A stretch of DNA of 64,000 nt from Tubulanus polymorphus (taxonomy: Eukaryota; Nemertea; Palaeonemertea; Tubulaniformes; Tubulanidae): assembly GCF_964204645.1 (NCBI RefSeq), contig NC_134030.1, positions 6,136,278 through 6,200,277 of the forward strand. Reading direction: 5' to 3'. Of the stretch, positions 48,919 through 53,582 are shown one piece after another. Under the pieces are notes generated by a model, which made no database searches, had not been told where the DNA came from, and worked only from the letters and a program-made list of their open reading frames with translations. Position 1 is the first letter of the stretch. Each line of letters begins with the position of its first letter. The position numbers and the translations under genes were made by a program.

Positions 48919-51900
48919 TCAAGGAAGTATTTGGGGTCGTTGAACTGTAACATCGCTGAGATAACGATGACCTAACGCGTTCTTAGCCGAGACCCTGTTG
49001 TGCGGTACATAGGTGAGCATCATCTATTAAAATACGAAAACAAAATATTGTATTAATGGACAGATGCAAAATAATCTCAAAATTGAAGTTATCAACCATT
49101 TATCAAATCAACAGATGAATTTTTTGATTGAACTGATACCGGGTAGCCACTTTCCACCAATTCACAAATTCCCAGAGTTTTCCATGTGATTACACACAAA
49201 TTCCTGAGCGAATCAGAGAATTTTCTAGGTTTAAAATGTTTCAATTCATTCATTTTTCATTGAATCATGCACTGATAAAGAAACACATGGTCAATAGCAA
49301 TATCTGAATTCTCTTGAGTTTTCCAGGTTTTTGGTAAAATTCATCAAATGTTCAGATTTTTTTCAGATTTTTCTGATTCCCCGAGTTTTCCAGGTGGGTG
49401 GCCACCCTGTGATATTTAGAGGTTAAAAGCTTGTGCAAAATGAATATTTCGAACCAAATTGAAAGCCAACTAAGTTGCTAATCAGTCTATACTATCAGGA
49501 TTATTCAATACTCACCATAAGTAATTCTTTACCATCTTCATCTAAAGTCGGAACTAGATGACCGATGTCTTTTTGAGGAGGCCATTTCGGAAATGTGCTT
49601 TTATAATCTGGTAATTTAGATACACCGGGCCATAAACGTTCATCAGGGGTACCTAAGTGAATGAGTAAAATATGTCAACCATATTTCGAGAGTCTATCTG
49701 AAAACTTGTGCGCTGTATTAAAGTAATAACTTGCCTAAAGTTCTAAAAATGCGGAAAAGTTGATCGATTTCAGAGTCACCAGAAAATAAAGGTCTTTTTG
49801 TAATCTGAAAATGAGTTAAGCAGAAATAATATTTTAGACACGATTACTAGCCAAATTATATCTAAGCCTCCCAATTAATAGAAATACAATTGATCATTAC
49901 TCCTGAAATTAGGTAAAATGTATTTTTAATTGCTTTCAGTATGTCTACACCGCAGTGCAGTGTAGAATAGCTGTAATGGACTTTGTTAGTACACCGCATC
50001 AAAATACATTATTGATGTTAATTACTAGCAAGTTTTTTTAATCTGTAGTCTATTGAAAGATCGTAGCATCCATTAAACATATTGAAATATTAGTAACTAA
50101 CAATACAACGCGGTGTAGGCGCGCTAAAGCGGTATGCCTATCATTCAACAAACCAGGATGGAATTCTAAAACATTTTCAAATTATCTCCAGCATTTTCGG
50201 GTATTAATTACAGGTAGTCAGCACTGAGAAGGGTTAACACTCACCATTTCAGCAAATATACAGCCAATACTCCAAACATCGATAGCAGTTGAATAGTATC
50301 GACAGCCTAGTAATATTTCCGGTGCTCGATACCACAGTGTAACTACCTAAAATACAGCAGTTAGAAACTATGAACAGATCAAACCAGTACCGCTTACCGA
50401 GCTTGGTCATAAAAACCACTTAATACTAAACACACTGCACTTTAAGGTATAACGTTAATTCCACTACAAAAATCTTGTACGTACATTTTAAAAGTATTTT
50501 TGTATTAATTTGTACCTCATGTGTATAGGATCGCACTGGAACACCGAACGCCCGAGCGAGTCCGAAATCAGCCAGTTTAATACTTCCCTCGCAATCGATG
50601 AGTAAATTCTGCGGTTTCAGATCCCTGTGTAGAACACGGTGTGTATGACAGTACGCGATGCCTTGTAATAACTGATGTAGATAACTCTATTGACAAAAGA
50701 TGAATCATAATAACTTAACTTCTGAATAAATACGGCAGGGATACTCGGGATGAAGCCCACACTCGGTTCCACAGTTCAGGGTTAACGATAACTCTAGAAT
50801 TACAGGATGGCTTACATCCCATTTACAAAGTTGTCAATGTTATAGGTCTAACACTAAATTCCCTGAGTGAATAAGCGGATAAATGGATATCTATTTGATA
50901 TCTAATTCATTTTCATGCGTTTTTGGCAAAAACAAACTAGGGGTCCAGGGACACCATGCCCACTTGGGAAGTGGTTTCAAATGCTCAAAAATCTAACAAT
51001 TTCAATATTCAACGCCCTCTGGTGACCATATACAAAAACCAATGACCTTGAAACTCAATACAATCATAAAACATGTCAGCAGCTACGATTTTATAATTGA
51101 TTGTGATAACAAAAAATGCCTCGTTACTAATCTAATATGGAAATACTAAGTTAATCTACTATTCAACGCCCCCTGATGACCATATTCAAAACCCAATAAC
51201 CTTGTAACTCACCATATTCATAGAACATGTCATGAACTACAACTTTGCAATTGATCATGGTAACAAAATATGCCTAGGTACCAATATAATAAGGAAATAC
51301 CAGGTTATTCTACTATTCAACGCCCCCATCTTGATTCTGATAGGGCCAATTTTTGGGCTGAAGATGTGTCTAGGGTAGATACATGTATAAACCAAATATC
51401 AAGACATTACCTTGAAGCGTCTTCAAAACTTCCCAAAATAACTGGATTCCGTCTACGGACGGACGAAGGACGAAAAGTGAACGCAATAGCCCGCTGGGAC
51501 TAAAGTCCCAAGTGGGCTAAAAAAGATTTCCAATTCCTTGAGTTTACCATGGTTTTTCTGATTTCTTGAGTTTTCCAGTTCAGTGGACTTAATCAATTAA
51601 AATTGATCTCATTGAACGATTAACCCGCCACTCTGTGTACCGGGTCCTCAAGTGCATTCTTACCTTAATTAATGGTAGAGGAATTCCTGAAGGTGGAGCG
51701 TTATCCATGAATTTCTTTAGATCTTGATTCAAATACTCAAACACTAGATACAATTTCTTATCATTGTGAATCACGTCTAGAAGCCTGCAAGTAAATGCAT
51801 TAATATATATGCATATATGAAGAAATGCATACATAAACTGTCAATTTCATAATTTGAAATATACTTAACTGACAATACTGGAATGATCTAACTCTTTTAA

Positions 51901-52261
51901 CAATGAGATTTCTCGTATCGCAGTACTTGGCACCCCTTCTGATTCCCTGAAAACATCAATCACATTTTAAGCCTGTCAGACACACTTAATGGTGTAGAAG
52001 ATTAAATTTCTGATCTTGACTTGTCGGATGGTTTGTTTATTGAGTGGACTGGGTGTCAAAAATAGGGGTACGTACACTGTACAACTTGATGAGCCACCTC
52101 TGGCAAGCGAGGAAATTTCGACCGTTTCATAGGCCTAAAACTTACGTGTCGAGTCTGATTTTTTTCAGCGCTACAATCTTGCCAGTTAGTTTATACTTGG
52201 CTTTGTAAACGACCCCATACGTGCCTTCACCAATCTTTTCTAATTTGTGGAAGTTTTCCAT
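48919..52261 (-). CDS. CDK2: Cyclin-dependent kinase 2
   Basis: CDK2 is the Ser/Thr kinase that pairs with cyclins E and A for S-phase entry. Exons (minus) are 52261-52146, 51946-51869, 51784-51664, 50686-50516, 50346-50245, 49804-49735, 49652-49516 and 49023-48919, giving 299 aa. Visible are [20 protein letters not shown] (Gly loop with Thr14/Tyr15), Lys33 in VALKKI, PSTAIRE at 45-51, HRDLKPQN (Asp127), DFGLARAF, activating Thr160 in [15 protein letters not shown], and [20 protein letters not shown]. Through Thr160 residue numbering equals human CDK2, and exon 3 has the same 121-nt length. Exon 2 (78 nt) is in frame only if it ends CAG|TTAAGT, a non-canonical donor. Intron 6 is GC-AG. The C-terminus ends [11 protein letters not shown]. 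Start chosen at the ATG of MENF; an open frame extends upstream without another ATG. Confidence 0.95.
49139..49409. mobile_element. CAGGGTGGCCAC-type TIR element, copy B
   Basis: The left end CCGGGTAGCCACTTTCC and right end GTGGCCACCCTG are inverted repeats. The interior is collinear with 32162-32409. The pentamer TGATA flanks both ends, a possible target duplication. It lies in the last intron of CDK2. Confidence 0.75.
50938..51523 (+). mobile_element. Pearl/HINE-like element with internal repeats and 3' hairpin
   Basis: It begins GGGGTCCAGGGACACC and includes GCCCACTTGGGA. Direct repeats of about 154 bp start at TATTCAACGCCC (about 51005, 51160 and a truncated third at 51314). An ACGGACGGACG microsatellite remnant follows (about 51455-51470). 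The 3' end is a hairpin, AGCCCGCTGGGACT/AGTCCCAAGTGGGCT, closing near 51518. Central tandem units, an ACGG-type microsatellite and a terminal hairpin are the architecture of bivalve pearl elements and Helentron-associated (HINE, DINE-1-like) elements. No Rep/helicase is encoded. It lies in CDK2 intron 3. Confidence 0.65.
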
Positions 52262-52837
52262 CTGGATTGAATAGGGTTTTGGGCGAAATGGAGACGAATT
52301 TCGCGGCACACTATGAGGAGCCACCGGCGGGTGGATGAAGTCCCTCAACTCAAACTGTCACGAAACATCAATACATTTTATTCGATTTAGTTTACACAGC
52401 TTTTGATAATAGAAAAAATGTATTCTAACAATCCATTGTAGAAAAAAATTCCTAAAACAATCAGGAATGTGTTTCAGACGTAAAAAATCATTCCAACCAA
52501 AGGGATTCGAACCCAACTTTAATTACGTGCTCACTCGACATGCGCCATTGAGAATCAATAAAATATTCATTTAATTGGAAATTGTTGATATTATTCGGTA
52601 CTATTCTACCTATTCTATATGATTCTAACGTCAATCCATTAATAAACGACAGAAATATATTGAAGAAAGACAGCGATTCGTGTGAGTTTATCTGACGAAT
52701 TTTTAATGTCAAAGCTCTTTCCCAGGAAAATGAGAAATACACTCGGAAAAGGCCTTTCACCTCCAAGTCCAATTCAATTCAATTTAATCTTTGTTGACCG
52801 ACAGGTAAAGAATTGATTTTTCTTCTTAAAGGTTGAA
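52262..52837. promoter_or_regulatory. Shared upstream region of CDK2 and NAA38
   Basis: 576 bp separate the two divergent start codons, so the promoters overlap or are shared. Inside, a tRNA-like box B on the minus strand (GGGTTCGAATCCCTTTGG, near 52495-52515) suggests an old SINE fragment. No TATA box is clearly positioned. Confidence 0.5.
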
Positions 52838-53582
52838 ATGTCGGCTACAGTTGATACACCTGGAAGAAAAATTCTGCGAAGTTGGTTGAACAAAACAATG
52901 CGCATTAAAATGACTGATGGCAGAGTGCTAATTGGTAAGAAAGAAAGAACACAATGCGACGACAGGCTGAAATGTCAGCTAACCTTCTTCAAAATGAAAG
53001 ATGCACTGACGCATGACACACCTGGTCATGAATTTCAAACCTTCACCTATCTCCCGTTGAATATCCTGTTGTAAAAATATGATCTATCTAAAATTGTAGG
53101 TGCTTTCATGTGCACAGATCGAGATCGAAATGTGATACTTGGTTCTTGTCAAGAATATTTAAAAGGTATTAACACTGATACTGGCCCTAGTCGATTCACA
53201 GTCTATAACAGTAATTTTACAGTAATTCACTTAATTCGGGATTTCTCAAGCTGGATTTTCACTTAATTAGAATGAAATATTTTGTCTAACCTGGAACCAA
53301 GTATACTATTTAAAGTCATAATTCAAATTTTATTTAACTCAGAAAAATCTGGCCAGTCCCTAGTCATCCAAAGTTGTAAGTTCTACTGTATATTTCACCG
53401 ATACTGAAATACACTGTGTTTCTTTCATGCTTTTTTGTTTTTTAGAGGATAGCCAGGAAGAGCCAAGAGTCTTGGGGCTTGCGATGGTTCCTGGACACCA
53501 TATCGTTTCTATAGATGTTGACCAATCGCAGAACGACGATCTGTCATGTGATAAATCAATGAGTGAATCAATGATTGAATGA
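52838..53582 (+). CDS. NAA38: NAA38 (LSMD1), auxiliary subunit of N-terminal acetyltransferase C
   Basis: NAA38 is the LSM-fold auxiliary subunit of NatC, which acetylates nascent proteins with Met-hydrophobic N-termini at the ribosome. Exons are 52838-52934, 53100-53165 and 53446-53582. All are GT-AG and in phase, giving 99 aa. The LSM core reads LRSWLNKTMRIKMTDGRVLI, then GAFMCTDRDRNVILGS and EEPRVLGLAMVPGHHIVSI. These are the Sm1 and Sm2 motifs seen in vertebrate NAA38. It is shorter than the human protein because the N-terminal extension is minimal. The tail is Ser/Asp-rich (SMSESMIE). It is head-to-head with CDK2. AATAAA at 53970-53975 may end the transcript. Confidence 0.92.

Follow-up and report, generated by a model that had tools for sequence, protein, structure and literature searches.

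The CDK2 gene of the nemertean Tubulanus polymorphus carries a T at the first position of intron 2, so that the junction with exon 2 reads CAG/TTAAGTA (the slash marks the splice site). This is a real one-base departure in a real CDK2 gene. With a probability of roughly 60%, we attribute it to a recent G-to-T lesion at +1, either a segregating allele or a consensus error, in an otherwise intact single-copy gene. The gene lies on the minus strand of the window, the 64,000-nucleotide stretch of contig NC_134030.1 that was analysed, and its main features, in window coordinates, are the following.

48920..52261, minus strand: CDK2 ortholog, by PDB match, BLASTP and splice-neutral alignment
51869..51946, minus strand: CDK2 exon 2, 78 nt, coding for 26 residues plus (R), with phase-2 introns on both sides
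51785..51868, minus strand: CDK2 intron 2, 84 nt, TTAAGTATATTT...ACTTGCAG, by splice-neutral alignment and reading of the sequence
51868..51868, minus strand: position +1 of intron 2, a T; CDK1 and CDK5 of this genome have G at the same position and phase
49653..49734, minus strand: CDK2 intron 6, GC-AG (TTAG/GCAAGT...ACTTAG), an accepted minor class, by splice-neutral alignment

The gene runs from its start codon to its stop codon (52261..48920) in eight exons, which encode a protein of 299 residues when joined at the homologous junctions. The closest PDB match of this protein is human CDK2 (E 6.5e-155, 517.8 bits), ahead of CDK3 (473 bits), CDK1 (433 bits) and CDK5 (367 bits). In BLASTP, it is identical to human CDK2 (298 residues) at 225 of 297 positions (75.8%), and the two proteins have the PSTAIRE helix and intact kinase motifs in common. 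The initial annotation was therefore right to call the gene CDK2. All eight exons are open, with the HRDLKPQN and DFG motifs in place, and no decay is visible beyond the intron 2 donor: the remaining junctions are all canonical, the other six introns being GT-AG with the exception of intron 6, which is GC-AG. A chance resemblance to a CDK2 junction is ruled out by the eight exons that yield a 299-residue CDK2 and by the canonical form of every other junction. A NAA38 (LSMD1)-like gene stands head to head with CDK2, the two start codons being ~580 nt apart (52261-52840), and the two genes may have a common promoter region. Within 50900-51500, intron 3 contains apparent imperfect direct repeats (..CAACGCCC..CTGATGACCATAT..) and a palindrome-like GGGACTAAAGTCCC, both resembling a repeat element.

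Exon 2 terminates in ATTGTCAG and is followed by the T at 51868 (TTAAGTATATTT). The acceptor of intron 2 is normal (ACTTGCAG/GCTTC), and exon 3 begins at 51784. The junction was located with a purpose-written spliced protein-to-DNA alignment against human CDK2, which gives zero credit for any splice dinucleotide. It returns an 84-nt intron 2 with four equal-scoring placements (CA-TG, AG-GC, GT-CA and TT-AG), none of which is GT-AG, GC-AG or AT-AC. The top canonical placement scores 9 versus 37, and no GT, GC or AT donor retains the homologous protein. Both the 78-nt length of exon 2 and the donor CAG/TTAAGTA, as originally described, stand by this alignment.

In CDK1 and CDK5 of this genome, residue 64 is followed by an intron at the same codon and phase as that of CDK2, and the donors read CAG/GTTAGAA and CAG/GTGAATA, respectively. 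Since all three genes have this intron, it is old, and the G at +1 is likely the ancestral state, as judged from paralogs within one genome. These paralogs bear out the earlier reading of the site as a G-to-T change at +1. The last codons of exon 2 (51869-51890) encode HSSIV, compared to HPNIV in human CDK2 and in the CDK1 of this genome and HKNIV in its CDK5. These two replacements, in an otherwise conserved exon and both within ~17 nt of the altered donor, may form a cluster.

Donor usage in this genome was sampled in the six other introns of CDK2 and in 15 gene copies (ENO1, GNB1, PPP2CA, two RAN, ATP5B, CDK1, CDK5, MAPK1, GSK3B, two G-protein alpha genes, PGK1, CSNK2A1 and NAA38). An intron was considered clean if its canonical placement scored at most 3 points below the best one; the 64 junctions set aside in this way were inspected by eye and ascribed to the ends of proteins, regions of weak conservation, truncation of the locus or aligner artefacts (e.g. 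YWHAZ and the first part of GNB1). Among the 93 clean donors, 92 are GT, one is GC (that of CDK2 intron 6) and none is of any other kind. A genome-wide change of the donor rule is unsupported in these introns, which are a small sample whose rate is biased by the definition of clean through canonical placement. The U1 snRNA genes recovered with an intact 5' end all read ATACTTACCTG (16 of 16), and a pattern search of the whole assembly for ATACTTA[AGT]CTGGCACAG, a U1 start whose base opposite +1 is A, G or T, finds zero copies. A U1 that compensates for the donor of CDK2 intron 2 is thus absent both from the 16 intact copies and from the pattern search.

The strength of the donor outside +1 bears on a different explanation, in which the TT-AG intron is fixed and functional: the major spliceosome would tolerate the T at +1 and join exons 2 and 3 accurately, if perhaps slowly. 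In a donor weight matrix built from the 93 clean donors, with nine positions scored besides +1, the intron 2 donor reaches 10.83 versus a native maximum of 10.38 and a median of 6.26. Its context is the best of all 94 donors, in a comparison that is post hoc, as the good context itself helped to draw attention to the site. Under independence, ~1.1% of native donors are expected to match at all nine positions. The pairing with U1, which contains a single mismatch, is worth -8.1 kcal/mol for a 16-mer. When 10-mers are used throughout, it amounts to -6.5 kcal/mol versus a native median of -7.5 kcal/mol and lies inside the native range, so U1 binding is expected to be ordinary. The acceptor scores 8.36 versus a native median of 9.36, and the other positions of the donor and acceptor are U2-like. 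A TT donor would require such a context in order to be tolerated. The remainder of CDK2, free of decay, is likewise in keeping with a working intron, and GT dinucleotides are present 1 and 5 nt upstream of the junction; the GA-AG donor of FGFR needs a GT 6 nt upstream.

There are precedents for such introns. In human, ETV1 is reported to contain a TT-AG junction that is used constitutively (PMC4176328) and that, like CDK2 intron 2, belongs to a U2-like intron starting with TT and ending with AG. The splicing of ETV1 has been demonstrated by RNA, whereas CDK2 intron 2 is predicted from DNA. Among the annotated introns of animals, 0.577% are not GT-AG, GC-AG or AT-AC (PMC7072748). The GA-AG introns of FGFR, E. 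affinis and O. dioica (PMC4176328, PMC7072748) also combine a non-GT dinucleotide with an otherwise strong donor, but they deviate at +2, whereas CDK2 intron 2 deviates at +1. A variant U1 was proposed to compensate for the GA-AG introns of E. affinis (PMC7072748), and none is found here. Furthermore, TT-AG introns are very rare, no similar donor occurs among the clean introns sampled, and +1 is the splice position most often mutated in disease (2362 entries, PMC2882926). That a core cell-cycle kinase has an efficiently spliced TT-AG intron as a fixed feature, served by ordinary U1 snRNAs whose near-perfect pairing with the remaining positions offsets the lost G, is a tentative and rather unlikely proposition. 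Whether the site is a lesion or a TT-AG intron, the anomaly is of a known kind.

A third explanation is that the real exon structure is different and gives a shorter working protein. It involves the following two sites or a constitutive skipping of exon 2.

51777..51869, minus strand: alternative GT-AG intron, 93 nt (GTCA/GTTAAG...CTTCTAG/ACGTG), the best canonical placement
51892, minus strand: cryptic GT donor in exon 2 (AGA/GTTAGAT), in frame, -24 nt, 8 residues lost, score 2.5

The initial annotation considered only the nearest GT as an alternative to the TT donor and noted that it breaks the reading frame. This is true of donor 51869 joined to the normal acceptor, which reads SF-stop, but three other alternatives keep the frame. 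Skipping of exon 2 does so because phase-2 introns flank this 78-nt exon on both sides, and it removes the PSTAIRE helix; donor 51892 takes away eight residues of the helix C-beta 4 turn; and donor 51869 combined with acceptor 51777 costs 9 nt and turns IVRLLDVIH into IVNVIH. Retention of intron 2 leads to a stop at the second codon read (AGT TAA). The residues lost in the three in-frame variants (RLLD, the eight of the turn and the PSTAIRE helix) are all conserved in human CDK2. The PSTAIRE helix makes contact with cyclin, and L66, within RLLD, is a residue of the regulatory spine; exon-skipped and cryptically spliced products should therefore be inactive or poor, with the kinase damaged. Donor 51869 scores -4.3, under all 93 native donors, and acceptor 51777 scores 0.87, a value equally low in two of 89 native acceptors, which places it among the three weakest. 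Exon 2 and the normal acceptor are intact, which is unexpected if they are unused. Despite the preserved frame, a different exon structure is very unlikely.

Function could also be supplied by a second, intact CDK2 copy elsewhere, the present copy being a decaying duplicate. This possibility was raised at the outset and gains nothing from the assembly: the present locus is the sole hit of a DNA search with a 761-base query, and the hits of a protein search are other CDKs with no second CDK2 among them, within an assembly whose gaps and withheld stretches keep this absence from being proof. A local tblastn search for a duplicate of exon 2 within the gene gives the known exon alone. Every exon of the present copy is intact, which is at odds with decay, and we regard a functional second copy as the most improbable of the explanations. 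Elsewhere in the assembly, four similar 14-3-3 C-terminal exons lie in tandem within 15 kb of contig C2 (C2:21559817-21574912), as tandem genes or alternative exons.

We favour the lesion over a functional TT-AG intron by about two to one because tolerated changes at +1 are rare, no compensating U1 is found and donors elsewhere are canonical. By rough estimate, a TT-AG intron that has become fixed, a +1 allele that segregates and an error in the consensus all have small prior probabilities of similar size. In favour of the lesion are the GT-AG and GC-AG ends of the other CDK2 introns, the open exons, the CAG/GT donors of CDK1 and CDK5 and the unchanged U1. Against it, a random donor hit would meet such a good context only ~1% of the time, a figure obtained post hoc, and the assembly shows no second allele and no second contig. 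Heterozygosity at the SNP level and outbreeding are probable for the sequenced animal, as contig C36 matches contig C10 at 98.2% and 99.3% identity over 6.7 kb, in the manner of haplotigs; the segments C36:90000-97000 and C10:8111500-8118500 are likely two haplotypes of one locus or else a recent duplication. Variants of splice dinucleotides do segregate in human populations (212 validated SNPs, PMC2882926). These polymorphisms and the +1 disease mutations of the same study resemble the present site in that a single base is altered, at a conserved +1 G, and the gene is intact apart from it. Loss of CDK2 is tolerated in mice, where Cdk2-null animals are viable (PMC7523694), and the earlier description of the kinase as essential was an overstatement.

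We infer that G was recently replaced by T at +1 of intron 2 in the sequence as assembled. The T would be either a loss-of-function or hypomorphic allele that truly exists, probably in the heterozygous state, and was chosen by the assembly, or a consensus error of one base; the sequence alone does not separate the two. If the T is real, U1 would still bind the donor because ten other positions pair with it, and the wrong base at +1 would block cleavage and ligation. Exon 2 would then be absent from most of the transcript, with an in-frame product devoid of PSTAIRE that is not expected to bind cyclin; otherwise, poor cryptic donors would be used.

If the T is an error, it illustrates the hazard that one base poses to annotation. 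If it is fixed and spliced, CDK2 intron 2 would be a natural test of how much relaxation introns permit at their near-invariant +1 G, and failure of this gene should show clearly in the phenotype. In the case of an allele, gene models and claims of essentiality drawn from one assembly can hinge on one base, and the site would be a plain case of recessive load in an outbred invertebrate.
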